A stretch of DNA of 64,000 nucleotides from an uncultured Bacteroidota bacterium (lineage in GTDB: Bacteria; Bacteroidota; Bacteroidia; Chitinophagales; Chitinophagaceae), in contig CAIVKC010000043.1 of the NCBI GenBank assembly GCA_903906365.1, positions 62,001 through 126,000 on the forward strand. Direction: 5' to 3'. A model generated the notes under the pieces. The model worked only from the letters and a program-made list of their open reading frames with translations, searched no databases and was not told the DNA's origin. A program made the position numbers and the translations under genes. Below are positions 23,453 to 58,501 of this stretch, piece after piece; within the stretch, counting starts at the first letter, position 1; each line of letters opens with the position of its first letter.

Positions 23453-23481
23453 GGTATGAATTGTTTATTGGACAATGGCAT

Positions 23482-32892: not shown

Positions 32893-32952
32893 TGTTAATG
32901 TTTGAAGGGAAGGGGATTTCCCTAATTTCAGCGAACTAAAAAAGTATTGCTT

Positions 32953-36003: not shown

Positions 36004-36034
36004 AAATATATCATAGCATTAAATTCTTTCAAAT

Positions 36035-37789: not shown

Positions 37790-37899
37790 TTGAAGCAGAA
37801 AGACGCTTAATGATTATCTTGTAGGCTGATATTAACATCAGGCCGGAATGGTGACCACCGGTTGCCGATCCGGCCTGATTTGTTTATTTTATTCATTAA

Positions 37900-42327: not shown

Positions 42328-43311
42328 ATGAAAAAAGAAAGCTTAATTTTTTTAATTTTTACAGCACTGTCTGTCCTGATTTCCTATTCCTGCCAGGGGC
42401 CGGAAAAAAAACAAAATGGCAGTTTACCCGAGACTGCCGGAGGATGGATCAAGTATGAAAAAAATCCGGTGCTCGGCGGGGATCTGGGAACCATCTTTGA
42501 TGTCAGCCTTTTGCATGAAGGCCCAGGGGATTTTCAAATGTACTGCTCCTGGCGCCCAAGGCGCAGTATCGCCCTATCCACCAGCCGGGACGGACTATTA
42601 TGGTCCAAACCCGCTGTCTGCCTGTCCTTTAACGACAGCAGCGGATGGGAGCGGGATGTGAACAGGCCTGTGGTCCTGTTCCTAAACGGGAAATACCATA
42701 TGTGGTATACGGGCGAAAATGACAGTGCCTCCGCCATCGGTTATGCCGTCAGTGACGATGGACGCCAGTTCCGCCGGGTCAGTCCATTACCGGTGATGGT
42801 TGCCGACCGCCCTTGGGAAAAAAAAGCCCTGATGTGCCCGCATGTGATCTGGGATGATCAGCTGAAATTATACCGGATGTGGTATTCAGGCGGGGAGCAG
42901 TATGAACCCGATGCCATCGGCTATGCGACCAGCCCCGACGGTATCCACTGGGATAAATACCCTGCAAACCCTGTATTCCGGGCGGACAGTTCCCGGCAGT
43001 GGGAACAGGCAAAGGTTACCGCATGCCAGGTCATCAGGCGCAGGGATGATTACCTGATGTTTTATATCGGCTTTAAAAATACGGACTTCGCCCAAATTGG
43101 CATGGCCCGCTCAAAGGATGGAATCACCCAATGGGAAAGGTACGCCGCTAATCCCATCATCCGGCCGGGCATGGGGTGGGATTCGAGTGCCGTCTATAAG
43201 CCCTTTGCGGTGATGGACGGGGAAAAATGGCTGCTATATTACAACGGCCGCAAAAACAACATGGAGCAAATCGGTATTGCCCTGCACCAGGGACCAGACC
43301 TGGGATTTTAA
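42328..43311 (+). CDS. Five-bladed beta-propeller glycosidase-like lipoprotein
   Basis: The 327-residue lipoprotein (lipobox near ISYSC, anchor C22) carries the repeats of the GH43/GH32/GH130 propeller group. Examples are HMWYTGENDSASAIGYAVSD, YRMWYSGGEQYEPDAIGYAT, YLMFYIGFKNTDFAQIGMAR and LLYYNGRKNNMEQIGIAL. The FDVSLLHE stretch near residue 60 could carry the first catalytic aspartate. The exact GH family cannot be told by eye, and catalysis is not assured. It starts a plus-strand pair with the MGH1-like gene 37 bases downstream. Confidence 0.75.
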   Translation: MKKESLIFLIFTALSVLISYSCQGPEKKQNGSLPETAGGWIKYEKNPVLGGDLGTIFDVSLLHEGPGDFQMYCSWRPRRSIALSTSRDGLLWSKPAVCLSFNDSSGWERDVNRPVVLFLNGKYHMWYTGENDSASAIGYAVSDDGRQFRRVSPLPVMVADRPWEKKALMCPHVIWDDQLKLYRMWYSGGEQYEPDAIGYATSPDGIHWDKYPANPVFRADSSRQWEQAKVTACQVIRRRDDYLMFYIGFKNTDFAQIGMARSKDGITQWERYAANPIIRPGMGWDSSAVYKPFAVMDGEKWLLYYNGRKNNMEQIGIALHQGPDLGF

Positions 43312-43348
43312 AAACCAACAAAAACATCCCTGTCACCAGGGAATTCAT

Positions 43349-44986
43349 ATGCGAAGCGTCCTTATTCATCTGGCCTGTCTTTGGCTTGCCATGACAGCCA
43401 CCGCCTTGCTGCCGGAGCCCGCTGCGGCCCAGGGAACCGTATTGCGTCCGGAAAGTTTCAAGCATTTTGTGGATAGTTTCAACCTGTGGGACCATGAATT
43501 GTATCCGCAATTTATTTCCAATGCAAAAAGCTGGGAATTCCTGTCAGCCAATATTCCTTTGCTGGACTGTCCCGATAAACAACTGGAGCAGACCTATTAT
43601 TTCAGGTGGTGGACCTACCGGAAGCATATCCGAAAGACGCCGGAGGGCTTTGTGATCCTTGAATTCCTTCCCGATGTCAGCTGGGCCGGTAAATACAATA
43701 CCATCAATTGTGCAGCCGCATTGCATGTATATGAAGGAAGATGGCTGCACGACAGTCAATACATCAGCGATTACATAAAATTCTGGTACCGGGGAGGAGG
43801 TGATATGGAAGCTTACAGCTGCTGGATGGCCGATGCGCTGTGGAACCAGTCCCTGGTAAAGGGTGACAGAAAACTGGCCATATCGCTGGAAGCAGACCTG
43901 GTCAGGGAATATGGAAACCGGGAAAAAGCGCAATTGGACAGCAATGGTCTGTATTGGCAGATTGACGGCAAAGACGGAATGGAAATGTCCATCTGCGGGG
44001 GCAGCGATGGGGACAGGCCTGCCTACCGGGCCACCATCAATTCATACCAGTACGGGGATGCCATGGCCATTGCCCGCATTGCGGACTGGTCAGGTCAGCG
44101 GGAGGCGGGGGATTTGTTTCGCAACAAGGCCCTCACCTTAAAAAATAACATAGAGCGCCTGTTGTGGGATGACACGGCGCGATTTTTCAAAGTACTGCAA
44201 AAGCCGGTGGCAGATTCAGGTTACCGCAAAGGAATGCCTTTATGCAGCGCCAGGGAGTTACACGGATATACGCCCTGGCTTTTCAGCCTGCCATCCTCGC
44301 GTTATTCGGTTGCCTGGAAATTCCTAATGGATCCCCGTTATTTTTATGCCCCCTACGGGCCCACCACCGCCGAACAGGGACATCCGGGATTCGACATTTC
44401 CTACAAGGACCATGAATGCCAGTGGAACGGCCCTTCCTGGCCGATGGCGACCTCCATAACGCTCACCGCCATGGCCAACCTGATCAATAATTATCCTCCC
44501 TCCCCGGTGAGGGCTCAGGATTTTTTTAAGCTTCTGCTGCAGTACGCAGGCTCCCAGCAACGAACCAGGGAGGATGGACGGGTGGTCCCCTGGATTGATG
44601 AAAACCTCAATCCCTTTAACGGGGACTGGATATCCCGTACACGCCTTTCTACCTGGGAAAACGGGCATTGGTCCAAAGAGAAGGGAGGCCCCGAAAGAGG
44701 CAAGGATTATAACCATTCCACTTTCTGCGACCTGGTTATAACAGGTCTAATCGGGCTTCGGCCCTCGGAGGGAAATACAGTCCTGGTCAATCCAATGATA
44801 CCTGCCGGCACCTGGGATTATTTTTGCCTGGACCACCTGACCTATCATGGAAAAATGCTGACCATTCTCTATGATCGTCTGGGAACCCGCTACCACCGGG
44901 GCAGGGGGATGATGGTTTTTGTCGATGGCAGAAAAGCGGCAGCCAGTCCGGTGCTGAAGAAAATCATGGTTAGGTTGGAGCATTGA
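43349..44986 (+). CDS. MGH1-like (alpha/alpha)6-barrel glycoside hydrolase
   Basis: The protein has 545 residues from the ATG at 43349, which begins a good signal peptide (MRSVLIHLACLWLAMTATAL); the open frame starts 24 codons earlier but inside the previous gene. It fits the mannosylglycerate-hydrolase-like domain related to GH63. Visible are EFLPDVSWAGKYNTINCAAA, ICGGSDGDRPAYRATINSYQ, ELHGYTPWLFSLP and KDHECQWNGPSWPMATSITL, the last being a strong family mark. It probably removes alpha-linked sugars from imported oligosaccharides in the periplasm. A strong hairpin follows downstream. Confidence 0.85.
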   Translation: MRSVLIHLACLWLAMTATALLPEPAAAQGTVLRPESFKHFVDSFNLWDHELYPQFISNAKSWEFLSANIPLLDCPDKQLEQTYYFRWWTYRKHIRKTPEGFVILEFLPDVSWAGKYNTINCAAALHVYEGRWLHDSQYISDYIKFWYRGGGDMEAYSCWMADALWNQSLVKGDRKLAISLEADLVREYGNREKAQLDSNGLYWQIDGKDGMEMSICGGSDGDRPAYRATINSYQYGDAMAIARIADWSGQREAGDLFRNKALTLKNNIERLLWDDTARFFKVLQKPVADSGYRKGMPLCSARELHGYTPWLFSLPSSRYSVAWKFLMDPRYFYAPYGPTTAEQGHPGFDISYKDHECQWNGPSWPMATSITLTAMANLINNYPPSPVRAQDFFKLLLQYAGSQQRTREDGRVVPWIDENLNPFNGDWISRTRLSTWENGHWSKEKGGPERGKDYNHSTFCDLVITGLIGLRPSEGNTVLVNPMIPAGTWDYFCLDHLTYHGKMLTILYDRLGTRYHRGRGMMVFVDGRKAAASPVLKKIMVRLEH

Positions 44987-45060
44987 TGGATGCTGGCCCG
45001 AAGGGTTTGCAGTCCGGGGGAACCTGCCAAAGGGTATTGTCAATAAAACGTATACAAAGG

Positions 45061-45099
45061 AACAGGCCGGCCCGGCTGGATGCGCGGGACCGGCCTGTT
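45061..45099. terminator. Strong GC-rich hairpin between converging genes
   Basis: AACAGGCCGG (45061-45070) and CCGGCCTGTT (45090-45099) pair fully, and CCGG/CGGG inside extend the stem. There is no clean T tract on either strand. Placed between the MGH1-like gene (plus) and DUF1080 (minus), it probably ends or protects both transcripts. Confidence 0.6.
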
Positions 45100-45144
45100 G
45101 GGGAAGGTCTCATTATTGAATAATGCCGTGACTAGGTCACAACC

Positions 45145-45909
45145 TTAATTGTTCTTAATGCGGATATTGCGGTATTCTACTTTCATGGAAGGAAGCACAT
45201 GCACCTGCAACCCGATCAGGCCGCTGAATTTACGGCTGGTGGTATCATTGTCGGTCGCTTCACTCATCAGGACCTTGTTGATGTAGTGTTTCATGTGGTT
45301 ACCCTTCACCACCAGGTATACCTCATTCCAATCATTGTTCTTTATGAATGCTTTTAATGAATCGGGATTACCCAGCGAGCCGGTAATGACGGGTTTCTGA
45401 TTGGCCTCCAGCGTGGCAATCTGGCCCCTCATGGCCAGGAAACCGCGCCCCCTTTCTTCGTAATTCTGACCGGTATACTGGTTGGCTCCGTCTATATCGG
45501 CCTGGTAGCCTTTCAGGGCATAGCGGATATCCGGGAGTTCTTCACTCCGGTATTGGATGCCACTGTTGCCGCCTTCGCTGATCCTGTACTCGGCCTTGAG
45601 TTCAAAATCAGCGGGTTTCCCTCCGCGCCAGATCAGAAAAGTATTGGTACTGATCTGTTTTTGCGGGGTTACCTCCCCGATGAAACTGCCGCTGTCTACT
45701 TTCCAGACGGAGCTATCCCCTTCCCAACCGCTAAATGTCTTGCCATCAAATATCGGGACAAAGCCGTCTTTGTCGGCCAGGCTGCTGCTGTCGGTACCGG
45801 CATTGCCGGCGGCGGAGGGCCCCTTGTCACCGCAACCGGCCAGCAGACAGATCAAAATCAGTGGGAAGGCCAAGGCAGTCAGGGATTTATTCCAGGTGTT
45901 TTTTTTCAT
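45145..45909 (-). CDS. DUF1080 (3-keto-disaccharide hydrolase) lipoprotein
   Basis: The 254-residue lipoprotein has a lipobox (CLLAGC, anchor C26) and a DUF1080/PF06439 domain from about residue 50. FVPIFDGKTFSGWEGDSSVW opens the domain, GNSGIQYRSEELPDI lies in the core and IGLQVHVLPSMKVEYRNIRI closes it. Known members include 3-keto-glycoside hydrolases or lyases that act after C3 of the sugar has been oxidised. It is the last gene of a six-gene minus-strand operon and follows the Gfo/Idh oxidoreductase by 50 bases, the expected partner in such a pathway. Confidence 0.92.
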   Translation of the reverse strand: MKKNTWNKSLTALAFPLILICLLAGCGDKGPSAAGNAGTDSSSLADKDGFVPIFDGKTFSGWEGDSSVWKVDSGSFIGEVTPQKQISTNTFLIWRGGKPADFELKAEYRISEGGNSGIQYRSEELPDIRYALKGYQADIDGANQYTGQNYEERGRGFLAMRGQIATLEANQKPVITGSLGNPDSLKAFIKNNDWNEVYLVVKGNHMKHYINKVLMSEATDNDTTSRKFSGLIGLQVHVLPSMKVEYRNIRIKNN

Positions 45910-45959
45910 TTTTAATTTATTGAAGTGTTAAAATGGATGGTATGATGGGATTTGGGTGG

Positions 45960-47114
45960 TCATTGGTTTATTGACGTGTCTCTCCAGGTTCCCGTCAGGG
46001 CTGAATCATAGACCGCCTGGCAAACCTTCTGCGTTTCCAGTGCCTCTGAAAAAGTGGGTGAACATGGTTTGCCCGTCGTGAGGCTTTCCAGAAAATCTGC
46101 TGCCTGGTGAACAAAGGAATGTTCATAGCCAATACCCAGCCCCGGCACCCACCATTTGTCCATATAGGGATGGTCTCCGTCCGTTACATGGATGGAACGC
46201 CAGCCTTTCAGCCTGGATTCATCACCATTGTCGAAAAACTCCAGCCTGTTCAAATCATGCAGGTCCCAGCGGAGGGAGGCATTGGCTCCGTTGATTTCAA
46301 AGGTATAGAGGGCTTTGTGTCCGCGCGCATAGCGGGTGGATTCAAAATTACCCAAAGAACCATTGTGGAAGTGACAATGGAAGGTGCAGGCATCGTCAAT
46401 GCTCACCTGCTCTACGTGGCCGGTAAGCTGATGCATCCTTTCCTTGATAAATGTTTCCATCATGGCTGATACGTCCCGGATACCCCCGTTGAGCCACATG
46501 GCCGTATCGATGCAATGGCTCAACAGGTCCCCCAGTACGCCTGAACCTGAAACGGCAGCATCCATCCGCCAAAGGCCTTCCCCGCCCTGGGGCAGGTTGG
46601 CGTTGATGGTCCAGTCCTGGAGAAAATTGGCCCTGAAGTGAAATATCCTGCCCAGTTTACCGGAGTCCACGATCTGCTTGGCCAGGGTAACGGCCGGGAT
46701 GCGCCGGTAATTATACCAGACCATATTGGGTACGCCGGCTTTTTCCACTGCGTCCACCATCGTCTGGGATTCTGCCAGTGTTCTGGCCAGGGGTTTTTCG
46801 CAAAGAACCATTTTTCCTGCCAGGGCGGCCGCCCTGGCAATCTCCGCATGGGAGTCATTGGGTGTGCAGATATCCACCGCGTCGATATCCTTTCTTTCAA
46901 TTAGTCGCCTCCAGTCTGTTTCAAAGGATTCATAACCCCATTGTTCGGCAAAGGACTTTACTTTGTCCCCGTTGCGGGCGCATACGGCTTTCAGAACCGG
47001 CAGATAATCCAGGGCCGGGAAAAAATCACCCACCCGCTTATAGGCGTTGGAATGGGTCCTTCCCATGAACCCGCATCCTATCAGTCCAATTCGGAGTTCT
47101 TTCTTATTTTTCAT
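45960..47114 (-). CDS. Gfo/Idh/MocA family sugar oxidoreductase
   Basis: The 384-residue protein has a Rossmann motif at the start ([20 protein letters not shown]), no signal peptide, and the catalytic EKP at 106-108 ([11 protein letters not shown]). The C-terminal part holds [17 protein letters not shown], with the active-site D and H pattern of the family. Such enzymes oxidise or reduce sugars with NAD(P); some oxidise glycosides at C3. It is cytoplasmic and differs in that from the exported GH109-like protein, which lacks EKP. It lies between the TIM-barrel isomerase and DUF1080. Confidence 0.92.
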
Positions 47115-47177
47115 TGTTTGATTGTATTTGAAGGGTTTTCCATCATTCCCCTATACCAAAACAGGGGACTGTATTAT

Positions 47178-48224
47178 TTATTCAGCTTCATACCAGCCGT
47201 GTGCTTCGCGAACCCGGACCATTGCGCCCAGGATGTCATTCCATGTTTGCTGCCGCTCCATCACGGCATTGGGGAACATACAGCCATCCCAGCAAATATG
47301 CCTGAAGGCCTTGGTCAGTCTGCCTTCCTCGTCCCTGAGCCAGTATCCGGCATCATGGGGTATATCCAGTTTCCCGTTGGGATCGGTCGCCTGGCAATGC
47401 CGGCCTGTTTTGTCGTGGGAACCCGCACCATGTACCGTTCCGTCATTTTGAGCAACATGGAAATCAATGGTCCAGGGCCTCAACGCCCGGGTAAGTGTCT
47501 TCAGCCCCTCGGAGAGAGCCTGGCGGTCCCCCCACTGGAAATCAGGCGGCAGGATGCGGTCTTCCGGACGGTTAACACCCAGCAGATACAGCAGGGTATG
47601 GGCCATATCGGCCTGGAAACCGATATTTGGACGGTCTACGGCTTCCAGCGTATCGACCATGGTCTTCCAGCTGTGCATTCCACCCCAGCAGATCTCTCCC
47701 TCTGCAGCCAGCTTTTCCCCAAATTCCGCTGCTGCGTCGCAGGCTTCCCTAAAGGTCTGGGCTATTAGTTTGGTATTGCCTTGCGGGTCAGCGGACCAGG
47801 CTTCCGGGTTGGTGGCTGAATCAATGCGCACGATACCATGCGGCCGCACACCCAGCTCGCGCAATTTCATGGCAAACCGGCAGGATTTGCGGACCTGTTC
47901 TACAAACCGGGTTCGGTCTTCCCGGGTACCCATAGCCGAACCGCCGGCGGGCGGCCAGACGGGAGCCACAATGCTGCCTATGTGCAGGTTGAGTGCCGAA
48001 ACTTTATCGGCCAGTTTTTTGATGCCGTCATCTGAACTGTCGATGTCAAAATGCGGTTCGAACAGGCCGATGTCAATTCCGTCGAATTTAACGCCATTCA
48101 CCTCGGCCGCAGCGGTGAAATTCAATAGTGTATCCAGGGCTAAGGTCGGTTCGGAGCCAGGACCTTTGCCGACCACGCCGGGCCAGGTGGCATTGTGAAG
48201 TTTTGGATAGTTATTAGCTTGCAT
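47178..48224 (-). CDS. Sugar phosphate isomerase/epimerase-like TIM-barrel protein
   Basis: The 348-residue protein fits the xylose-isomerase-like TIM-barrel family (AP endonuclease 2 fold). [19 protein letters not shown] lies near residue 38. [12 protein letters not shown] and [18 protein letters not shown] carry the E, D and H expected as metal ligands, and [20 protein letters not shown] the next histidine. Members isomerise, epimerise or cleave keto-sugars. No signal peptide is seen. Its place between the cupin and the oxidoreductase fits a step in keto-sugar conversion; the exact reaction is unknown. Confidence 0.85.
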
Positions 48225-48245
48225 ATCGTTTGATTAAATGGTGAT

Positions 48246-49460
48246 TTATATGGAAAGGTCCGGATTTGCCGGTCCGAAATGTTTGAGCATGACAATGGGA
48301 TCGGTGGTGGATGCGTTGACGATGTCAACCCCTTCCCTGGCGGCTTTTTCCGAAACGAAAAACTCATCATTGGTCAACTGCCCATAGCGTATCAGGGAGG
48401 GGGTCTCTACTTCCCAAACACCCATCCTGCCCCTTCCCTGCATCATGATGATGCCATAAGCCGCACTGTCCCGAATGGTTACTTTGCACCCAGGTAGTAC
48501 GGTCAGTTCTTTGGCACTGAAAGCCTCCGATTTGTAACAGACCCATTTTTCGATATAGCCTGAAGCCAACATTTCGGATTCGGACCGGACAGGCAAAGGT
48601 TCCATAAAACGGTTCTGGTGAAGCAGGGGGTCTACATTCAGCTCCCAGTCAATCACATCGAGCAATTGCTCATAGTCACCTATGCTTTCCTTGGGGGTAC
48701 CGTTCCACAGCAGTTCTTCGGGTATGATGGCCTCATTGACCAGCGACTGGTACATGGCAAATACGTCGGAGGCTTTTTGCGGTTCATAGGTGCAAAGACT
48801 GCCCGGGGCATGCAACAGCCCTGGCGGCACATCCCATCCTGTTCCCGGTTGCAGACGGAACGCCTGCGAGTAATTGGTGATCTTATTATCGCCTTTGGTG
48901 AAATTCATCAGGCATTCCTTGATCTGGGCCCTGGTGGTGCCGGGGGAAATTCCCATGAAGGTGTATGGAAAATCTCCGCCATGGTTATTGAGCTGGGGCG
49001 GAAAATAATAAGCTTCGGGCTTTCCCAGCTGGCCAATCAGGGCTGCTTTTTCATCATTGTGGTGAATATGATGGGGCAGGGGACCCATATTGTCAAAAAA
49101 TTTGGAGTACATCGGCCAGGAGCCATATTGATTCCATAAACGGTCTCCGATAAGCTCACCTTTGAGCTCGTCGATGGCATCTTTGAGCAGGATTTGCTGC
49201 TCCGTGTTTCCGTCCCGATAGACGACCGCACTTAATCCTTCATTTTTACCCGTCAGGGGCCCGTTTTTGGCAGGGGTGGTCGAAGACAACCAGCGTTCAT
49301 CTATTCCCCCTCGCTGACCGCCGAGTACATAATAATCATCGGGATGTAATTTTATCCTTCTTCCCGGTACGCAAAAGGAACGGGGGACCCAGGTGGGTGC
49401 TAAACGTAAAATGCCTTTACCTTGTTGGAGGGCATTGGCTGCTGCATGTCTTTTTTCCAT
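48246..49460 (-). CDS. Mannose-6-phosphate-isomerase-like cupin protein
   Basis: The protein has 404 residues from the ATG at 49460; the open frame begins two codons earlier at a TTG. It resembles class I mannose-6-phosphate isomerase. LPHHIHHNDEKAALIGQLGK holds the first metal histidines, and TGWDVPPGLLHAPGSLCTYE is the second cupin motif with the late histidine, like the IPAGTLHA of true isomerases. It is probably a zinc-dependent aldose-ketose isomerase. No signal is seen. It lies 21 bases before the TIM-barrel gene in the operon. Confidence 0.78.
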   Translation of the reverse strand: MEKRHAAANALQQGKGILRLAPTWVPRSFCVPGRRIKLHPDDYYVLGGQRGGIDERWLSSTTPAKNGPLTGKNEGLSAVVYRDGNTEQQILLKDAIDELKGELIGDRLWNQYGSWPMYSKFFDNMGPLPHHIHHNDEKAALIGQLGKPEAYYFPPQLNNHGGDFPYTFMGISPGTTRAQIKECLMNFTKGDNKITNYSQAFRLQPGTGWDVPPGLLHAPGSLCTYEPQKASDVFAMYQSLVNEAIIPEELLWNGTPKESIGDYEQLLDVIDWELNVDPLLHQNRFMEPLPVRSESEMLASGYIEKWVCYKSEAFSAKELTVLPGCKVTIRDSAAYGIIMMQGRGRMGVWEVETPSLIRYGQLTNDEFFVSEKAAREGVDIVNASTTDPIVMLKHFGPANPDLSI

Positions 49461-49543
49461 TGGCAAAATTTAGTAATCGTTTTTTAATGTGTTGCCTTTT
49501 TCTGCCGGCAGTTCATAGGAGCCCCTTTCTAAAAGGGCCGGAG

Positions 49544-50620
49544 CTAAGAGGCTTCAAAACCTCCCAGAAAATCATGGCAGGACTCGGTTCCCTGGAGCAC
49601 TTCCATTTCCAGGTCGTAAACCAGGCTTTCGCCCGGAGCCACAAACCGGAGAGTTGAGGCTTTCCTGGCAGCCGCCTGCCCAATGGGAGGATTTGTGCCG
49701 GGTTCCAGCCCGGTTATATATTCTCCGTAACCAAAATGCTGCCAGTTGGTAAGCCAGGGCAATTGGTCCTTGCGGAATCTCAGCACAAAGGCCAGATTAA
49801 TTCGCTCATTGTATAATCCACAGCTGCACTGCCCGTTCCGGTCGGCAAGGCTGTCAATAAAACCGACATCTTCTCCCTTTCCGGCATGCACTTCCAGGGG
49901 ACCCGGACATCTCCTGTAATCATGTCCCGGCCTAAAGATGTTACCGGGGTTTCCCGGCGGCTTTTGCTGTAAGTCTCCTTTCCACAGGATTCGGGTACCT
50001 TCATCCACCAGGGGCCACCCGAAATTGCAATGATACAGCAGCATATGCGGCGTGGGCTGGTTGGATAAGTTGGTCACTTCATCATGAATGAAAATGGATG
50101 ACTTTCCCAGGGTGGAAGAGATGGTCCTTCTTAATTCAAGGCTTGGTCCAAATATCGTCGTCTGCCGGATCAGCCCTGTTATACTCATTTTCATCCGACC
50201 TTTTCGGGGATCTGGCTGCAAAATGGATTCAACCTCCGCGGCCGTATTGCTGATGGGTCCGTGCAGTCCGCGTTCTCCATATTCATCCACTTCTGGTCCC
50301 CCGACGTGGTCAAGTCCGCAGGTGGTCAGCAGCCCCCCGCCAAAAGTGCGAAGCCAGCCGGCGCCCCTGTCAGAAAATGGCTGCGGTGCGGTTATACCCG
50401 ATAGGCTAAGCCAGGAGAGATTGTACTGATTATGACTGGCATCGGCAATGTCCATGGCCCGGTCTATGACCACTTTGTAACGCAGTCCTGAACCGGTATT
50501 GATCCAGGCAATGCGGGTGCCACGTCCGGGTCCGTTGTCCAGCACGGCCGTTTCTATCCCACCCAGCTGGGCTGGATGGGATAGTTTGCCGCTCCATGAT
50601 GGTACCGGATGATCTGACAT
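49544..50620 (-). CDS. DUF4432 family (aldose-1-epimerase-like) protein
   Basis: The 358-residue protein fits DUF4432, a family with the galactose-mutarotase fold. Seen are GIETAVLDNGPGRGTRIAWI at the start, YKVVIDRAMDIADAS and AGWLRTFGGGLLTTCGLDHV, then GLHGPISNTAAEV, all marks of the family. It may interconvert sugar anomers or epimers; the function is not established here. It starts 7 bases after the stop of the PVC-type cytochrome gene and precedes the cupin by 83 bases, on one transcript. Confidence 0.88.
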   Translation of the reverse strand: MSDHPVPSWSGKLSHPAQLGGIETAVLDNGPGRGTRIAWINTGSGLRYKVVIDRAMDIADASHNQYNLSWLSLSGITAPQPFSDRGAGWLRTFGGGLLTTCGLDHVGGPEVDEYGERGLHGPISNTAAEVESILQPDPRKGRMKMSITGLIRQTTIFGPSLELRRTISSTLGKSSIFIHDEVTNLSNQPTPHMLLYHCNFGWPLVDEGTRILWKGDLQQKPPGNPGNIFRPGHDYRRCPGPLEVHAGKGEDVGFIDSLADRNGQCSCGLYNERINLAFVLRFRKDQLPWLTNWQHFGYGEYITGLEPGTNPPIGQAAARKASTLRFVAPGESLVYDLEMEVLQGTESCHDFLGGFEAS

Positions 50621-50627
50621 GGATCAG

Positions 50628-53321
50628 TTATGGTTTTTTGGGTGCAAAAATGGTATCCTGTTTATTGCCGCCTGATTTAAGGTAGGCCAGCAAATCCTTC
50701 AATTCTTCGCCATTGAGCCTGTTTATCAGTCCGGGAAACATGATGGATTCCTTGGAAAGCTGGGTCTTGATCACTTCCTTTTTCGAAAGTTCGCGCTGGG
50801 TCAGTGGTGCAAAGGGATTCTGGGAAACATAATATTTGTCTGCATCCTGATTGACCAGCCTTCCCACGATGGTGCTGCCGTCCTTCATGTGGAAGACCGT
50901 GGCCGCAAACTGGTCGGAAACCGTCCTGCTTGGATCAACAATGGCGATCATCATATCCTTATAGGAAAACCTTGTCCCGAGTTCGGTCAGATCCGGTCCT
51001 ATTGTTCCGCCTTCGCCGCGCATGGTATGGCACAGGTTACACATCGAGGCACTGAACATGGCCTTGCCCCGGTTGAAATCCTGGTTATGCAGCCCGTTTT
51101 TGACAAGCACCATCGCAGAATCCACATCCCAGTCTACGCCGGGCCCTTTGGGTTGCACAACCCCTTTTGCCAGCCCCATCTGGGAGCGCTCCACCAGGGA
51201 ATCACCTGATATGGTATTAAAGTAGGCTAGTTTATCCTTGGGGACATTCTTCAGTGCATTCTTGCGAGCCTGGTTGATGAAACCGACAAAGCTGTGACCT
51301 CCCTTGTATCCAAAGGCCTTATAAAACCAGCGGAAATAGTTTTCCCTCAGTTCGGGTGTCCACCCTGTTTTGGCCGCACTCAGTACCGTGGCGTAATAAG
51401 TCTGCTGCTGGGCGGGCACATTGGATAGCATGGCGGCAATATCCATACCATAGGCCGGATTGCGGAGAATCTGGTCGGCAGAATTGGTGAAGGTCTTCAT
51501 GGCTCCCGGATCATCTTTGGCCACGGCCAGTAGCGCAATGGTCTTTTCCACGGCCTTTGGATCTCCCAGGTATACCAGTACTTTGCTCAGTGACCTGTTT
51601 AGGTCGTTTGAACTGGCAGGATATTGTTGGTCCAGGTATTGAATTACCTTGTTTTTTGTTGCAGGGCCAGGAAGCCCCATACGGGAAACTACCAGTTCAA
51701 AGGCCCTTAGCAGATCAATCTGCTGCGACTCGTTTAGCTGGGTGTAGGGAATGGCGGTCAGCGCTTGGAGCAGTTCGTCCCGCACAGAAGCCTTCCCCTG
51801 CCGGGCCAGCGCCAATGCAGCCTGGGTAAGGGCAACGGGATCTTTTTCATGAAGTGCTTTATCCTGCCACTGGCTAACCGGCTGGTGTTCTACTGCAATC
51901 CTGGCCGCGAACCGGATAAATCGGTCCCCGTTGTTCAGGTTTGGCCAGGCCACCTCAAGGGCATCGGCTTTGGGGGCCCCGTGATAGGACTCCAGTTTGT
52001 GTCTGAGTTTTTGCAGTTCCGTGGGTTCGGACACGGCCAGTTTCTCGGTATTGGCCTTATTGTCCCCATAATAGACGCGGTACAGGTCAGATTCCAGCCT
52101 GCGACCACCGGTGAGAAAATACAGGGCACCGTCTGGTCCGATCATGCCATCGGTCAGGGGCAGGGGGGAGCCAGATATGAATTCTTCAGCGGCAGCCTTA
52201 TAGGAAGCCCCTTCGGCCTGAGGCTGGAAGGCATATATAATGCCAAAGCTCCAGTCAAAAGCGAAAATGGAACGGCGATATTTTTCGGGGAACCTGGATT
52301 GCTGCCCGCTGAACACACTGGTGGGAGAACCCTGTCCGATATTCAGCAGGGGAGGCAGATTATCAGGGTAGTGTTCGGACCATTTGTCGGTTCCGGGACG
52401 CCAGCCGAATTCCCCGCCACTGGGTACATGGCAAATGCGGATCGGACGGTACCAAGGAAGGCCGAAATCCCATTCCATGTCAGAATCGAAGGTGAACATA
52501 TCACCGGCCTCATTGAAGGCCAGATCAAAGGGATTTCTAAATCCTGCACTCACCAGGTTGAAATTTCCACCTGTTGAATCGATTTGTGCGATCCATCCGC
52601 CATGTGTATTTACGGTATTGTCATGTCCGTTGGGATCCCTTATCAGGGGAAGCAGGTTGTCTATCTGCCAGACAGGAGGGGCCGAATAATTATCCATCTT
52701 GGGAATCTTGGTAAAATTGCCTGCGTTAATGTAGAGGGAATTTCCATCCGGGGCCAGCACGATGCTGTGAGGTCCGTGTTCGCCATCACCTTCCAGTCTT
52801 TTGATCAGGGTGATTTTGTCATACTGGTCATCCCCGTTGGTATCCTGCAAACGGTAGAGACCGCTGGGCCTGGAATTGGCCGTATCACCCTCATCATTGA
52901 CCATTACATATAGACTGTGAAATGCATAAAGCAGGCCGTGGGCATAACCAATCCGGCGGGAAGCCCGGCTGGTATCACCGGGAATATGTAATTCGATACT
53001 GTCTATTTTTATCTTGTCCTGGGTGGTATCCGCACCGATGGCGGGAATGGTGAGCCTGTATAAATTGCCATACTGGTCAGAAGAAATCATCCTGCCTTTT
53101 TCATCAAAGGTCATGGCCACCCAGGAACCCTGGTTATGTATGCCCGGACTGTAGAGATGGTCGGCATGAAAATCGGGTGGTAGTTTCAGGGCTGCAATTT
53201 TTGGATCTTTTGACACAGCTGCATTGTCCTCCTTTTTTGAAGCCGGATTACATCCCAGCGAACATTGAAGGACAATAAAAAGCGCGCAGCAAAAGCTGGG
53301 AAGGCGGAAGTGTTGGTACAT
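50628..53321 (-). CDS. PVC-type heme-binding lipoprotein (propeller, HEAT, cytochrome c)
   Basis: The 897-residue lipoprotein has an anchor cysteine at C24 (LQCSLGC). A six-bladed propeller resembling glucose/sorbosone dehydrogenases follows (about residues 60-430, with GEHGPHSIVLAPDGNSLYIN and SAGFRNPFDLAFNEAGDMFT). Helical HEAT-like repeats and a C-terminal cytochrome c domain with heme site CNLCH (761-765) complete it, with GTIGPDLTELGTRFSYKDMM and VDPSRTVSDQFA after the heme. It is the first gene of the six-gene keto-sugar operon. Probable role: periplasmic oxidation of a sugar with electrons passed to its own heme. No PQQ gene is nearby. Confidence 0.9.
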   Translation of the reverse strand: MYQHFRLPSFCCALFIVLQCSLGCNPASKKEDNAAVSKDPKIAALKLPPDFHADHLYSPGIHNQGSWVAMTFDEKGRMISSDQYGNLYRLTIPAIGADTTQDKIKIDSIELHIPGDTSRASRRIGYAHGLLYAFHSLYVMVNDEGDTANSRPSGLYRLQDTNGDDQYDKITLIKRLEGDGEHGPHSIVLAPDGNSLYINAGNFTKIPKMDNYSAPPVWQIDNLLPLIRDPNGHDNTVNTHGGWIAQIDSTGGNFNLVSAGFRNPFDLAFNEAGDMFTFDSDMEWDFGLPWYRPIRICHVPSGGEFGWRPGTDKWSEHYPDNLPPLLNIGQGSPTSVFSGQQSRFPEKYRRSIFAFDWSFGIIYAFQPQAEGASYKAAAEEFISGSPLPLTDGMIGPDGALYFLTGGRRLESDLYRVYYGDNKANTEKLAVSEPTELQKLRHKLESYHGAPKADALEVAWPNLNNGDRFIRFAARIAVEHQPVSQWQDKALHEKDPVALTQAALALARQGKASVRDELLQALTAIPYTQLNESQQIDLLRAFELVVSRMGLPGPATKNKVIQYLDQQYPASSNDLNRSLSKVLVYLGDPKAVEKTIALLAVAKDDPGAMKTFTNSADQILRNPAYGMDIAAMLSNVPAQQQTYYATVLSAAKTGWTPELRENYFRWFYKAFGYKGGHSFVGFINQARKNALKNVPKDKLAYFNTISGDSLVERSQMGLAKGVVQPKGPGVDWDVDSAMVLVKNGLHNQDFNRGKAMFSASMCNLCHTMRGEGGTIGPDLTELGTRFSYKDMMIAIVDPSRTVSDQFAATVFHMKDGSTIVGRLVNQDADKYYVSQNPFAPLTQRELSKKEVIKTQLSKESIMFPGLINRLNGEELKDLLAYLKSGGNKQDTIFAPKKP

Positions 53322-53638
53322 TTGGAAGTATTGATATGAATAGAAAATAATTTCGCAATCGTATAATCTATGGAGACTGAAGGTTTCCCAAATCTTCTTT
53401 CAGCAGTTGTACAATGATGCCACTTCTTTGCCTCTTGAGTTAGCAAGAATAGCGCATGTTTTTGAACTACCCAAATTCACTTTTCAGTTTTATAAAAATA
53501 TACAGCTGCCGGCCTGCTGTGGTTCCACGTCAGGAATTTGTCCAGTCTTTACAACCCGCGCAGTCCGGGTTTTTAAAGGGCGTTTACCAGCCACGGGCCC
53601 GGTTATTCTGCCTTAGGGGCAGGGTATTTTAAAAATGC

Positions 53639-53650
53639 ACAATCGTTTGC
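53639..53650. promoter_or_regulatory. LacI-type operator, site 4
   Basis: ACAATCGTTTGC; its reverse complement GCAAACGATTGT differs from site 1 at the last base only. It lies between the two divergent operons, 250 bases before GH92 and 317 bases before the cytochrome gene. Confidence 0.65.
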
Positions 53651-53789
53651 TCAGGTAAATGCAGGTTTTCTTCATTATGTTTGAAAATCTGATGCTAACG
53701 GGTGGCAGGGCTTGTCGTGTGGTTACCTGAGGGAGCAAACAGAAAGTCCCTGAAAACAGCAGGATGCCGGCCTTTGGCATTGACTTAAA

Positions 53790-53799
53790 GGGGGGGGGG
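53790..53799. repeat. Homopolymer of ten G
   Basis: Ten G in a row follow TTAAA and precede CGGTC. It is the longest homopolymer noticed in the window and lies in the probable promoter region of GH92. Its length may vary between cells or be a sequencing error. Confidence 0.7.
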
Positions 53800-53900
53800 C
53801 GGTCATGGTGCTGCCGAAAGATGCCTTGATTACCAGGGGACGATTTCTTTTGAGACGAAGAGAGCGTGTTACAAGCCTAACGAACTTTTAAAAAAAGACC

Positions 53901-56261
53901 ATGAGATCCCTTGTTAAAGTTTTATTGTTGCGGGCTGCCTGGTTAACCTTATCGGGAGTTACGAGCCTGGCCGGGCAATCTCTGCTGCCCTTAGCGCCAG
54001 CGGTCAAATCTCCGGCCGACTATGTCAATCCTTTCATCGGTGCCAGCACAAGCGCAGGCAAGGCCGGGATCTTTCACGGACTGGGAAAGACCTTCCCCGG
54101 GGCAGCTACGCCCTTTGGCCTGGTGCAACTGAGTCCCAATACGATAACGGGCGGAGATAACGGATCGGGATACAGCTATGAACATACCAGCATAGAAGGC
54201 TTTGCCTTCACCCAGATGAGTGGCGTGGGCTGGTACGGAGACCTGGGTAATTTACTGGTCATGCCAACGGGCGGCCCCCTGAAAACATTCGCTGGCAGGA
54301 TGGATCATCCCGGGGAGGGTTACCGGTCCGCTTATTCAAAAAAAAGCGAAAAAGCCTCTGCCGGTTATTATGCCGTGCGCTTAACTGATTATAATATTCG
54401 GGCTGAACTCACGGCAGCTCCCCACAGCGGAATGATGCGATTCACTTTTCCTGCATCCAGGCAATCCCGCATACAAATAGACCTGGGCCGGCGGGTAGGG
54501 GGCAGTTCCACGCTGCAATATGTTCAATATATCGATGCGCATACCATCCGGGGATGGATGAAGTGCACGCCCCTTGGCGGGGGATGGGGCAATGGGGACG
54601 GGCATGCCGACTATACCGTGTACTTCTATGCACATATCAGCAAGGCCATGGCAAATTTCGGCGTCTGGAGCGCGGGTATTGGGGAAGACTGGAATCCAAA
54701 ACTCGAAGATCTGGGAACCGACCGGTACCGGGAAAAATTGGCGACAGCCGCCGTATCAAGAGGAGTGACGGAAGGCAAGGGTAAGCATATTGGCTTTTTC
54801 GCGGAGTTTGCTACCAGTTCCAACGAGCAGGTATTGCTGAAGTCGGGTATCTCCTTTGTCAACATGGAGGGCGCCCAACACAACCTGGAAACCGAAATCC
54901 CTGACTGGGATTTCGAAAACATCCGCAGACAGGCCCGCCAGCTTTGGAACAATGCCTTGCAGAAGATTTCGCTGGAAGGCGGATCGGATGAGGAAAAAAC
55001 GGTTTTTTACACTGCCCTTTACCATACCCTGATTGACCCACGCGCTTTTGCGGATCTGGATGGAAAATATGTTGGGGGCGATGGCAGGATACATCAGTCG
55101 GGAAAATATACGCGGCGAACCATATTCAGCGGATGGGATATCTTTCGCAGCCAGTTTCCCCTGCAAACCATCATCAATCCCAGGGTGGTCAGTGACATGA
55201 TAAATTCCCTGGTTGACCTTGCCGATGAAACCGGCAGGCATTACCTGGAAAGATGGGAATTTCTCAATGCCTATAGCGGCTGCATGATAGGAAACCCTGC
55301 CGTATCGGTGATTGCCGATGCGTATGCCAAGAAAATCCGGGATTTTGATGTTGGCAAAGCCTATGGGTATTGCCTGAACAGCTGCCACCAGTTTGATAAT
55401 TCCCAGCTTGGGTATACCTGGGGGGAGGACGGGATTTCAAAAACCCTGGAGTATGCTTATTCCGACTGGTGCCTGTCCCGGCTGGCCTCCGCCCTGGGCA
55501 AAACAGAAGATGAAGCCATTTATGGAAAAAAGGCACTGGACTACAAGACTATTTTCGATGATTCGGTGGGCTGGTTCCGCCCACGCAGGCAGGATGGCAG
55601 CTGGGAACCCTGGCCGGCACAAGGGCGGCTACAGCAGGATTACGCAACGGTGGAAAGCAATCCCTATCAGCAGGGATGGTTTGTTCCACAGGACATTCCG
55701 GGGATGGTCCGCCTGATGGGCGGTCGGGAAAAAGTCAAAAAAGACCTGATTGATTTTTTTGAACACACCCCCCAAAACATGATGTGGAACGATTATTATA
55801 ACCATTCCAACGAACCCGTGCACCATGTCCCTTTCCTGTTTAACCGGATCGGATTTCCCTGGTTAACCCAGCAATGGACCCGGGCCATTTGCACCAGGGC
55901 CTATCATAATTCGGTGGAAGGGCTGGTCGGCAATGAGGATGTGGGACAGATGTCAGCCTGGTATGTGCTGGCTGCCAGCGGACTGCACCCGGTTTGTCCC
56001 GGGGATGAAAGGTATGAGATCACCAGTCCGGTGTTTAACCGCATTACCATCAGACTGGACAAAAACTATGCAAGCGGGTCCACCTTTACGATAATTGCTT
56101 CCAACAACAGTCCCCGGAATCTGTATATTCAGTCAGCAAAGCTCAATGGCAAACCCATTAACCGATGCTGGATTAATCATTCGGAGATTGCGGCAGGGGG
56201 AGTACTGTCTTTGACAATGGGAAACAAACCCAATAAGAATTGGGGAACAGGGGACCGGTGA
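53901..56261 (+). CDS. GH92 family alpha-mannosidase-like glycosidase
   Basis: The 786-residue protein has a signal peptide (about residues 1-25) and the GH92 layout: an N-terminal beta domain, with YVNPFIGASTSAGKAGIFHG and GATPFGLVQLSPNT near the start, and an (alpha/alpha)6 barrel. The likely catalytic acid is E585 in VESNPYQQGWFVP, where most members read TEGN, and the base pair includes D680 in GNEDVGQMSAWYVL. GH92 enzymes are calcium-dependent exo-alpha-mannosidases. The changed acid motif and the PYQQG stretch suggest a different linkage or sugar. GH31 follows after 86 bases. Confidence 0.95.
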   Translation: MRSLVKVLLLRAAWLTLSGVTSLAGQSLLPLAPAVKSPADYVNPFIGASTSAGKAGIFHGLGKTFPGAATPFGLVQLSPNTITGGDNGSGYSYEHTSIEGFAFTQMSGVGWYGDLGNLLVMPTGGPLKTFAGRMDHPGEGYRSAYSKKSEKASAGYYAVRLTDYNIRAELTAAPHSGMMRFTFPASRQSRIQIDLGRRVGGSSTLQYVQYIDAHTIRGWMKCTPLGGGWGNGDGHADYTVYFYAHISKAMANFGVWSAGIGEDWNPKLEDLGTDRYREKLATAAVSRGVTEGKGKHIGFFAEFATSSNEQVLLKSGISFVNMEGAQHNLETEIPDWDFENIRRQARQLWNNALQKISLEGGSDEEKTVFYTALYHTLIDPRAFADLDGKYVGGDGRIHQSGKYTRRTIFSGWDIFRSQFPLQTIINPRVVSDMINSLVDLADETGRHYLERWEFLNAYSGCMIGNPAVSVIADAYAKKIRDFDVGKAYGYCLNSCHQFDNSQLGYTWGEDGISKTLEYAYSDWCLSRLASALGKTEDEAIYGKKALDYKTIFDDSVGWFRPRRQDGSWEPWPAQGRLQQDYATVESNPYQQGWFVPQDIPGMVRLMGGREKVKKDLIDFFEHTPQNMMWNDYYNHSNEPVHHVPFLFNRIGFPWLTQQWTRAICTRAYHNSVEGLVGNEDVGQMSAWYVLAASGLHPVCPGDERYEITSPVFNRITIRLDKNYASGSTFTIIASNNSPRNLYIQSAKLNGKPINRCWINHSEIAAGGVLSLTMGNKPNKNWGTGDR

Positions 56262-56347
56262 ACTGAGAGGTAAACCATCCTGCCACATCACCTGAAGCGC
56301 CTCGTAGAGTAGGAGGGCAGTAGAGTCCGGTAAAAAAATATTCATAC

Positions 56348-58501
56348 ATGAAAAAACAGTTTGCCCTGTCGGCGCTTTTTTTGGTACTGGTACATTTTGT
56401 CAGCGCGCAGCCTGCCGGCCTGTCCTGGGAACCGGTGGCTGCCGGCGTGTGGAGGGCTAAGATAGGCGAACCCCAACTGACCGACCTGCTATCTGCAGGG
56501 GGTGCCCTTCCCCGCCTGGAAGCGCTTGAAAAACTGGGTGAACGTCCCTTTCCCCTGCCTGCAGGCCTTTGTTACGCAGAAAATCAGGCGGGTGGGATCT
56601 ATATAAGGCTCCCTTTGCAAAGGGAGGAACAGCTTTTCGGGCTGGGACTGAATTTCAAGACCGTCCAGCAAAGGGGAAGGATCCTGCATTTGCATACCGA
56701 CCATTATGACGGATCCGATAACGGGAGGACCCACGCGCCGGTTCCTTTTTATGTCTCCGACAGGGGATATGGCGTATTGATCAACTCAGCCCGTTATGTT
56801 ACGGTCTATGCAGGCACCGCCAACCGGGTCGACAGCCCGGATCCACCCCGGGTCTACGACCGCAATACGGAAACTGCCTGGGAGGCACAGCCCTATTCAG
56901 ATGCGGTGGAAACCCTGGTACCCGGTAATGGTACGGAAGTGTACGTTTTTGCGGGGAAAAACGCCATGGAAGTGGTACAGCGTTTCAACCTGTTCTGCGG
57001 TGGGGGGGTGCTGCCCCCTAAATGGGGTTTGGGTTTCACCCAGCGGGTGCCGGCCCTGTCCACGGAAGCGGATGTAATCAAGGAAGCGGATGCTTTTTCC
57101 GACCATAATTTCCCGCTGGATTTTATAGGACTTGAGCCTGGATGGCAAAGCAAGGCCTATCCCTGTACCTTTCAATGGGACCATGCCCGCTTTCCTGACC
57201 CGGCCGCTTTCGTCAAGCGGATGCTGGATAAAGGAATCCGTCTGAATCTTTGGCTCAATCCGTACCTTTCCCCTTCATCGCCCAGTTATAAGCAAATGAA
57301 ACCGCTCTCCGGCAGCCATACGGTGTGGAACGGGCTGGTACCGGATTTTAATATCCCTGCCGCCGGGAAAATCTACCAGGAAATCTTCGAAAAGGAACAT
57401 ATTGGAATAGGCATTTCCGGATATAAGATCGATGAGATCGATGGTTTTGATAACTGGCTTTGGCCTGATGTGGCAAGCTTTCCATCCGGGATAAGCGGGG
57501 AGCAGATGAGACAGGTCTTTGGACTTAAGATACAAAGACTCACGCTTGACTGGTTCAGGAAATACAACAGGAGGACCTACGGTCTTGCCCGCGCTTCCAA
57601 TGCCGGCGGAGCCTCGCTGCCCTATGTGATATACGACGATTATTATGATCACCGGGATTTCATAACGGCCATGTGCACCAGCAGTTTTATCGGGGTGCTC
57701 TGGACCCCTGAAGTTCGTGCCTCTGCATCAGCGCAGGAATGGCTTCGCCGCATGCAATCGGTCTGTTTTTCCCCGATGGCCATGATCAATGCCTGGGCAG
57801 ACGGAACCAAGCCATGGAGTTATCCGGAAGTGGCCGGTGCCGTCCGGGAAGTGGCCTCCCTGCGGATGCAGTTATTCCCTTACCTCTATACCACTTTTGC
57901 ACAATATTATTTTGAAGGCATTCCCCCGGTCCGGGCTATGAACCTGGTAGATGGCTTTTCCTATAACCCGGCTTCAACAGCGGGAGCCCTCCATTCCACC
58001 GGCAATCCCTACTCCCTGGCCCTGAAAGAGGATATCAAAGACCAGTTTATGCTGGGGGATAATCTCCTGGTCGCACCTATGTTTGCCGGTGAAACCAAAC
58101 GCAGGGTCGTGTTGCCACGGGGCAAATGGTATGACTTCTATACCGGCCGGCTGGCCGGCGAAGGTGAAGTCATTGAAATTGTACCGGCCGCGGAACGGAT
58201 ACCGCTGTTTGTGCGTGACGGAGGAATCATTCCCATGATCCCTGCCGTTTTGCATGCCCCTCGAAAAGGGGAGGTGTTACCCCTGGAGATCCGGTTTTAC
58301 GGTGATACCGCCGGCCGCTTTTCCCTCTATGATGATGACGGGGAAACGTTTAATTATGTAAAGGGTGAATACAACTGGTATCAGCTGCAGGTTACCCGGG
58401 ATAAGGGTGGAAAATGGAAGGGGCAGACCCTGTTGCCCGAAGGGCAGAAAAATATGGGGCAATACGGAACTGTCAGCTGGAAAATGATGAATGAACGATA
58501 G
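56348..58501 (+). CDS. GH31 family alpha-glycosidase
   Basis: The 717-residue protein has a signal peptide (MKKQFALSALFLVLVHFVSA) and a GH31 layout. The N-terminal beta-sandwich includes QLFGLGLNFKTVQQRGRILH. The barrel has FIGLEPGWQSKAYP and the nucleophile D362 in GYKIDEIDGFDNW. MAMINAWADGTKPW and FAQYYFEGIPPVRAMNLVDG are further conserved parts. The nucleophile segment differs from the usual WxDMNE, as in other Bacteroidota secreted members. Alpha-glucosidase, xylosidase or galactosidase activity is possible. It is in tandem with GH92. Confidence 0.95.
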   Translation: MKKQFALSALFLVLVHFVSAQPAGLSWEPVAAGVWRAKIGEPQLTDLLSAGGALPRLEALEKLGERPFPLPAGLCYAENQAGGIYIRLPLQREEQLFGLGLNFKTVQQRGRILHLHTDHYDGSDNGRTHAPVPFYVSDRGYGVLINSARYVTVYAGTANRVDSPDPPRVYDRNTETAWEAQPYSDAVETLVPGNGTEVYVFAGKNAMEVVQRFNLFCGGGVLPPKWGLGFTQRVPALSTEADVIKEADAFSDHNFPLDFIGLEPGWQSKAYPCTFQWDHARFPDPAAFVKRMLDKGIRLNLWLNPYLSPSSPSYKQMKPLSGSHTVWNGLVPDFNIPAAGKIYQEIFEKEHIGIGISGYKIDEIDGFDNWLWPDVASFPSGISGEQMRQVFGLKIQRLTLDWFRKYNRRTYGLARASNAGGASLPYVIYDDYYDHRDFITAMCTSSFIGVLWTPEVRASASAQEWLRRMQSVCFSPMAMINAWADGTKPWSYPEVAGAVREVASLRMQLFPYLYTTFAQYYFEGIPPVRAMNLVDGFSYNPASTAGALHSTGNPYSLALKEDIKDQFMLGDNLLVAPMFAGETKRRVVLPRGKWYDFYTGRLAGEGEVIEIVPAAERIPLFVRDGGIIPMIPAVLHAPRKGEVLPLEIRFYGDTAGRFSLYDDDGETFNYVKGEYNWYQLQVTRDKGGKWKGQTLLPEGQKNMGQYGTVSWKMMNER

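Follow-up and report, generated by a model that had tools for sequence, protein, structure and literature searches.

We analyzed a 64,000-nucleotide stretch of DNA from an uncultured Chitinophagaceae bacterium of the phylum Bacteroidota (contig CAIVKC010000043.1; hereafter the window, whose own numbering is used throughout). Six co-directional open reading frames (ORFs) on the minus strand, at 45145-53321, form a real operon which is common to many Bacteroidota. In reading order, they encode a propeller-cytochrome (CytPVC), a DUF4432 protein, a cupin related to type I mannose-6-phosphate isomerases (PMIs), a TIM barrel, a Gfo/Idh/MocA oxidoreductase (Gfo), and a DUF1080 lipoprotein. In our estimation, the arguments are evenly balanced for and against these genes being a conserved catabolic operon for a glycoside or a rare sugar, with the work divided between compartments. 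The best reading of such a scheme would be a variant of the known 3-keto-glycoside routes.

Organization and conservation of the operon

The source genome comprises 4.66 Mb in 69 contigs and is given as 99.94% complete. The intergenic gaps, 5' to 3' in the operon, are 7, 77, 21, 63, and 50 bases, and the second becomes 83 bases if the cupin begins at ATG 49460, its likely start (404 amino acids), instead of TTG 49466; this agrees with the 7 to 83 bases given in an earlier note made from the sequence of this DNA. Matches to sigma-70-type promoters were not above chance (8 observed vs 9.8 expected), and no Bacteroidota-type promoter pattern was found at the operon. The strong hairpin in the convergent gap downstream is likely a terminator, which could act for both strands. 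The operon is directly flanked on either side by a glycosidase-type gene of the plus strand: at its 3' end by an MGH1-like gene, which converges with it, and at its 5' end by a GH92 gene, which diverges from it.

The cupin was used as the probe for the gene set in other genomes. It had matches in 6 of 39 genomes of relatives (the source genome included) and in 50 of 392 genomes of a phylum sample, namely 11 (again including the source genome) at ≥74% identity, nine at 35-50%, and 30 with weak short matches only. Stretches around 20 cupins were taken, and the 14 with a close cupin are referred to as strong loci; six of the nine distant cupins were taken (one, L051, on a 3.7 kb contig), and a 15th close cupin, on a contig of 3.4 kb (G019), was left out. 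A scan of named genomes gave at least 594 stretches, at least 571 of them encoding the cupin. The best 80 of these by cupin identity were kept, which leans to close relatives; their genera include Spirosoma, Larkinella, Dyadobacter, Pontibacter, Adhaeribacter, Chitinophaga, Aquirufa, Maribacter, and Rhodonellum. The 50 stretches spanning 20 kb or more served as the named loci.

All six genes, which the earlier note had singled out as a set, recur together in 13 of the 14 strong loci and in 41 of the 50 named loci. The remaining strong locus (L044) has no cytochrome nearby, and a copy at 56% identity lies on another contig of that genome. Gene order differs among the strong loci; the cupin and the TIM gene are each split over two ORFs in L040 (a fragmented assembly, 80% complete), and the last gene reaches the contig end in L037. 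In the phylum sample, the TIM protein is present in 11/11 genomes with a strong cupin vs 7/381 others, so that the association exceeds chance (Fisher test). Likewise, a full-length cytochrome match of at least 39% was found in 7/7 strong-cupin genomes vs 7/191 others in a 198-genome sample. Around the distant cupins of L051-L056 (33-48% identity), no counterpart of any of the five remaining genes was detected at E 1e-5, and the claim of co-occurrence is therefore limited to close cupins. Eight of ten weak-cupin loci inspected were aligned (A9), and all eight match the PMI catalytic domain.

Among the 50 named loci, the cupin is present in 50, TIM and Gfo in 49 each, DUF4432 and DUF1080 in 48 each, and the cytochrome in 43. 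All six genes lie on one strand in 39 of the 41 complete loci, and 188 of the 205 core neighbor pairs in these loci are directly adjacent on one strand, with a median gap of 27 bases, an underestimate in that each ORF was started at its first possible start codon. Pairwise distances of the six proteins are correlated (r 0.60-0.79; 0 of 500 permutations reached any of the 15 values), which is also expected from common descent alone. The steadiest part is DUF4432-cupin-TIM-Gfo, complete in 48 of the 50 loci. In L087, L126, and L130, this part stands as a four-gene unit; DUF1080 lies on the other strand, and the cytochrome is missing from the vicinity. In the Dyadobacter loci L104 and L135, the place of the cytochrome is taken by DUF1080, ThuA, an alpha/beta hydrolase, and two more TIM proteins, and an ATP-binding cassette (ABC) importer follows the core. 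L072 lacks both the cytochrome and DUF1080, and in L128 the cytochrome and the cupin are the only two of the six. The coordinates of the operon genes and associated features are collected in Table 1.

Table 1. Operon genes and associated features; positions refer to the window unless a locus is named (aa, amino acids)
Feature	Position	Strand	Basis or remark
CytPVC, first gene, 897 aa	50628..53321	-	Signal sequence; beta-propeller, HEAT-like, and heme domain
DUF4432 aldose-1-epimerase-like protein, 358 aa	49544..50620	-	PF14486, 314.8 bits; 3ty1, E 1e-26
Cupin, type I mannose-6-phosphate isomerase-related, 406 aa	48246..49466	-	Alignment with PMIs
Xylose-isomerase-like TIM barrel, 348 aa	47178..48224	-	AP_endonuc_2, 45.9 bits
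Gfo/Idh/MocA oxidoreductase, levoglucosan-dehydrogenase-like, 384 aa	45960..47114	-	Pfam/NCBIfam scores, PDB matches
DUF1080 / 3-keto-disaccharide hydrolase family lipoprotein, last gene, 254 aa	45145..45909	-	PF06439; lipobox
Strong hairpin, convergent gap downstream of the operon	45030..45125	-	-34.2 kcal/mol, z -5.8
Divergent gap, operon to GH92 gene, 579 bases	53322..53900		Presumed site of the operon promoter
Dyadobacter co-directional run	L104 3938-17636; L135 4351-17159		DUF1080, epimerase-type TIM, ThuA, second TIM, alpha/beta hydrolase, four-gene core, ribose-type ABC importer

Next in frequency around the core of the named loci are SusC and SusD (27/50 each), and the ribose-type ABC importer genes RbsA, RbsC, and RbsB lie near it in 16, 15, and 13 loci, respectively; both SusC/SusD and RbsA/RbsC occur in 13. 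Other frequent neighbors are a long SGNH-PVC cytochrome (16/50), ThuA (15/50), and an epimerase-type TIM (15/50). The family labels of these neighbors come from scans of one member of each group and of some additional members. At L046 4674-7706, an FGGY-kinase-like ORF and a bifunctional RhaD-type aldolase/dehydrogenase (935.6 bits; cut-off 568) are co-directional with the module. No TIM match was found on plasmids, where the cupin gave one record (Arthrobacter, 31% identical) and DUF4432 gave 253, all below 60% identity; none of the four DUF4432 plasmid contexts (H2, H3, H4, and H6) is annotated with a partner set of Gfo and sugar isomerase. Eleven cupin pattern matches were obtained on viral contigs, with no relative among them.

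Features of the six proteins

The cytochrome is composed of a quinoprotein-type beta-propeller (residues ~40-425), a helical HEAT-like region, and a C-terminal c-type heme domain (C761, C764, H765) whose motif is conserved in 28/28 sequences. The heme domain passes TIGR02603 (97.3 bits; cut-off 68.15), and the propeller is under the cut-off of TIGR02604 (77.1 of 122.2 bits). Among solved structures, the AlphaFold model (mean pLDDT, the predicted local distance difference test, 79.3; low near the heme motif) is closest to soluble quinoprotein glucose dehydrogenase and to aldose dehydrogenases dependent on pyrroloquinoline quinone (PQQ), with AA12 lower; a sequence-profile search of the PDB matched only the heme and helical parts. 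The propeller thus modeled has the fold of the PQQ sugar dehydrogenases. Profile comparison by hhalign with nine GSDH-family proteins of relatives (A10) gave E 2.4e-7 (probability 93) for a 13-sequence cytochrome profile (A3) and E 4.5e-5 (probability 69) for a 28-sequence one (A8); the single protein had no PF07995 match at E 0.01. H182 and R262-N263, kept in 28/28 sequences, align with the GSDH His and Arg-Asn, which, together with the Arg pair of the last blade, we take to serve in PQQ binding and catalysis. PqqC had no match in the genome, and likewise none in the control genomes, so this result is uninformative. About 6.5 kb from the operon, the window encodes a second, canonical PVC-type propeller/HEAT/heme protein (59786-62851, plus strand, 1021 amino acids; TIGR02604 325 bits vs cut-off 122). 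The operon cytochrome is a divergent relative which falls below the TIGR02604 cut-off.

The DUF1080 protein matches PF06439 (3keto-disac_hyd; 132.1 bits vs cut-off 26.8), its gene being one of 13 such matches in the genome, and a lipobox (LLAGC), read by eye, predicts its export. The earlier note had called both this protein and the cytochrome lipoproteins; the label suits DUF1080, which has the one textbook lipobox seen by eye, and fails for the cytochrome family, in which Cys24 is kept in only 5 of 28 aligned sequences. The same note took Gfo and DUF1080 to be known partners in 3-keto-glycoside cleavage, which holds at the level of superfamilies only, the Gfo being far below the cut-offs of the BT_2158 and BT_2159 models (NF058561, 39.1 of 750 bits; NF058563, 33.9 of 650 bits). 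It aligns over its full length with levoglucosan dehydrogenase (6a3f, 281 bits), which ranks after its closest solved structure, 4h3v (332 bits), and it scores 337.3 bits against the LgdA equivalog model NF052479 (cut-off 650). K107, D196, and H200 of the Gfo are invariant in 14/14 sequences.

The three isomerase-type proteins counted in the operon by the earlier note do keep catalytic-looking residues. The TIM barrel (AlphaFold pLDDT 88.5) had no PDB sequence match at E 0.01. In fold searches, its top match was SCO6571 (2zds), followed at similar scores by the 2-hydroxy-3-keto-glucal hydratase AtHYD (8ro4), the 3-keto-glucoside 4-epimerase YcjR (6wn6), D-tagatose/D-psicose 3-epimerases, and xylose isomerase; the Foldseek match to 8ro4 has E 4.6e-8 and TMq 0.61, and many epimerases match alike. 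Invariant in 29 sequences are E175, E177, D206, H209, H256, H270, D271, K272, H276, and D313, and the loop HDKTGRHC (270-277) is likewise invariant; E175, E177, D206, H209, H256, and D313 make a putative metal site. In L158 (4742-17542), which lacks the cupin, the TIM gene is found with genes for an L-arabinonate-dehydratase-like IlvD, an FAH-family protein, and psicose-epimerase-like, IolE-like, and enol-lactonase-like proteins; this locus probably encodes a pathway for sugar acids which makes use of the same TIM.

At E 0.01, neither Pfam nor NCBIfam gave a match for the cupin. It aligns with eight PMIs from other genomes of the phylum (hhalign probability 96.7, E 3e-10), all of which match the PMI catalytic domain PF20511. 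H135, E151, and H219 are common to the cupin and the PMIs, and H133 replaces the PMI Gln; these four residues are putative metal ligands, the Q/H, H, E, H positions of PMIs presumably having a metal role. The TYR motif of PMIs has no counterpart in the cupin alignment. We infer that the cupin is a metal-dependent isomerase for a non-phosphorylated sugar. Its mean column identity over 14 sequences is 83%, compared with 77% for the TIM protein over as many. Because this highly conserved cupin is assigned to no family in either database, a single biochemical result could serve to annotate genes by the hundred (at least 571 stretches). RhaA (PF06134) is absent from 6/6 genomes tested and RhaD is present in all six; the absence is no proof that the cupin replaces RhaA, because other isomerase families were not searched. 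The Arthrobacter plasmid cupin (L188 7953-9158) has the same four metal-site residues and adjoins genes of a ribose-type ABC importer, the dihydroxyacetone-kinase family, ribose-5-phosphate isomerase, and the triose-phosphate-isomerase family. DUF4432 scores far above the PF14486 cut-off of 32.5 bits and shows no signal peptide by eye; 3ty1 is its only solved relative at E 0.1. The guess that yphB encodes the DUF4432 protein of E. coli was rejected (E 0.21).

Proposed route and alternative explanations

In the scheme which we propose, the propeller-cytochrome would oxidize a hydroxyl of the sugar, presumably at C3, outside the inner membrane, and the electrons would pass through its own heme c to the respiratory chain. 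The DUF1080 lipoprotein would cut the resulting keto-glycoside, also outside the inner membrane, and the freed keto-sugar would be imported, in many relatives perhaps through SusC/SusD across the outer membrane and by way of a ribose-type ABC importer across the inner one. In the cytoplasm, probably in this order, DUF4432 may mutarotate the freed keto-sugar, the TIM barrel may hydrate or epimerize it, the Gfo may use NAD(P)H to reduce its keto group, and the non-phosphorylated aldose so formed may be converted to a ketose by the PMI-like cupin. The division between two compartments fits because, by eye, two of the proteins (cytochrome and DUF1080) are exported and four are without signal sequence, and because importers are found nearby.

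Several observations weigh against this scheme. Two PF13618 genes lie elsewhere in the genome, so that the keto sugars could come from another enzyme. The Arg pair of the GSDH proteins (R391/R393 in A10) is replaced in the cytochrome by P388 and T390 (in 28/28 and 27/28 sequences, respectively), which makes its cofactor and activity uncertain, and the cytochrome is missing nearby in 7 of the 50 named loci. On these two counts, the role of first enzyme, which the earlier note had given to the cytochrome, is a conjecture. The fold of the TIM barrel, as modeled, is unspecific and picks no reaction by itself. The identities in L046-L048, three of the strong loci, are low (cytochrome 38-39%, DUF1080 34-47%), and both proteins could be paralogues there. 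In seven genomes, the TIM protein (55-73%) occurs but a close cupin does not; the six of these which were read (G379 was left unread) have, within the 20 kb taken, a PVC-type cytochrome, a ThuA-like gene, and often more sugar genes. These genomes and the loci with the four-gene unit indicate that the set is not rigid: the six genes are the commonest form. The earlier interpretation as a whole is partly supported: the operon-like unit, the co-occurrence of the six genes, the isomerase-type residues, the propeller fold, and an LgdA-like Gfo beside DUF1080 stood, and the cytochrome as first enzyme and the completeness of the path are conjectural.

The scheme can also be stated more ambitiously, as a previously undescribed sugar oxidation in two compartments, begun by a cytochrome of quinoprotein fold whose cofactor site is atypical and completed in the cytoplasm by the cupin, which would represent a new family of metal-dependent isomerases; together, the two would provide many Bacteroidota with the missing path by which free 3-keto sugars enter central metabolism. 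This version we put forward tentatively and find rather doubtful. A levoglucosan-type route is unlikely: an anhydrosugar or small glycoside would be imported whole, the LgdA-like Gfo would oxidize it in the cytoplasm, the TIM barrel would eliminate or hydrate, DUF4432 and the cupin would handle the released sugar, and the cytochrome and DUF1080 would merely prepare the substrate outside. The ranking of levoglucosan dehydrogenase directly after 4h3v among the solved structures nearest to the Gfo suits this route, as does the greater steadiness of the four cytosolic genes (48/50 loci) over the cytochrome (43/50), and the accessible text on Lgd loci likewise describes sugar ABC importers (PMC7676230, PMC10066097). 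Nevertheless, the Gfo reaches 337 of the 650 bits set for the LgdA equivalog, the six genes include neither a second Gfo nor a short TIM of LgdB1 size, and DUF1080 is retained in 48/50 loci.

Less likely again is a rare-aldose route without 3-keto chemistry, in which the cupin would turn an aldose into a ketose, the TIM barrel would epimerize it at C3, the Gfo would reduce or oxidize a side product, and a kinase and an aldolase would finish. Matches of the TIM barrel to tagatose and psicose 3-epimerases and the PMI-like metal-type site of the cupin are consistent with it, and in two of the strong loci (L042 and L046, of 14) the module is bordered by genes for an FGGY kinase and a RhaD-type aldolase. 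Kinase and aldolase are, however, not among the frequent neighbors in the 50 named loci, the L042 kinase is well under the rhamnulokinase cut-off (66.9 of 528 bits), RhaD-type genes occur in 6/6 genomes tested anyway, and the near-constant DUF1080 is left unexplained. Very unlikely is a further reading, in which a LacABC-type enzyme from another part of the genome carries out the 3-keto step and the cytochrome serves as an electron conduit or sugar sensor rather than a dehydrogenase. The two PF13618 genes located outside the operon region, from a family which we take to include LacB, the missing Arg pair, and the seven loci without a cytochrome nearby would agree with this; the presence of the cytochrome in 43/50 loci, its His and Arg-Asn in 28/28 sequences, and the lack of any GMC or PF13618 family match among the six genes argue against it. 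A chance neighborhood of unrelated sugar genes, which flanks also rich in glycosidases and PVC-type cytochromes might suggest, has a negligible probability and is refuted by the conservation of the gene set: the genes stay together over many genera with short gaps, and the recurrent neighbors do not include the glycosidases that flank the operon here.

Flanking genes in the window

Glycosidase-type genes (GH43/GH130-like, MGH1-like, GH92, and GH31-like) surround the operon on the plus strand at 42328-44986 and 53901-58501, and none of these was among its recurrent neighbors in the 50 named loci. Upstream of this glycosidase block, a SusC/SusD pair is followed by an FG-GAP/UnbV_ASPIC protein (32947-41280, plus strand). 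Further away, a DUF1501 gene lies beside a planctomycete-type cytochrome gene (PSCyt1/DUF1549/DUF1553; 21947-26283, minus strand), and a GH109-like Gfo gene (26448-27809) adjoins this pair.

Comparison with known systems

In the open-access literature searched, we recognized no description of the six-gene set, which is not proof of absence. The cytochrome resembles the soluble PQQ glucose/aldose dehydrogenases and AA12 in its propeller fold, His, and Arg-Asn, and differs from them in the lack of the Arg pair and in the added helical region and heme domain. The Bacteroides BT2157-BT2159 system for keto-disaccharides reportedly combines DUF1080 with Gfo proteins, as here, but its Gfo families, as represented by NCBIfam models, do not match that of this operon.

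In the sections accessible of the reports concerned, the known routes of oxidation, elimination, hydration, and reduction need four activities (PMC10628242, PMC7676230). In our scheme, a periplasmic dehydrogenase and DUF1080 would supply the first two and the TIM barrel and the Gfo the last two, and the sugar would be passed on by DUF4432 and the cupin. The Lgd pathway (LgdA-LgdB1-LgdB2-LgdC; PMC7676230, PMC10066097), as far as these accounts describe it, is alike in having an LgdA-like Gfo beside a xylose-isomerase-like TIM and, in some loci, a sugar ABC importer; in contrast to it, the present operon has one Gfo and one long TIM (348 amino acids) together with the cupin, DUF4432, DUF1080, and the cytochrome. 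LgdB1 is a TIM of about 275 amino acids, and LgdC is found in about half of the Lgd loci, according to the available part of the latter report (PMC10066097). The GlycDH-AtOGE-AtHYD-Gfo operon of A. tumefaciens, from what is accessible of its description (PMC10628242), shares the logic of oxidation, elimination, hydration, and reduction, and the TIM barrel matches the fold of its AtHYD (8ro4). However, its first enzyme, GlycDH, is a flavoenzyme of a Pfam family not found among the six genes, its cleavage is made by a TIM eliminase and here presumably by DUF1080, and neither the cupin nor DUF4432 is among its four enzymes as described there.

The lactose route of Caulobacter, which employs LacABC and DUF1080, has a dehydrogenase of a different family from the operon cytochrome (PMC9007349). 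In the accessible text of that study, the DUF1080 protein is important for lactose use and is proposed as a 3'-ketolactose hydrolase, and what becomes of 3-keto-galactose once cleavage of the DUF1080 type has taken place is described as unknown (PMC9007349). For this fate of 3-keto sugars, left open in the Caulobacter route, the operon offers concrete and widely shared candidate enzymes.

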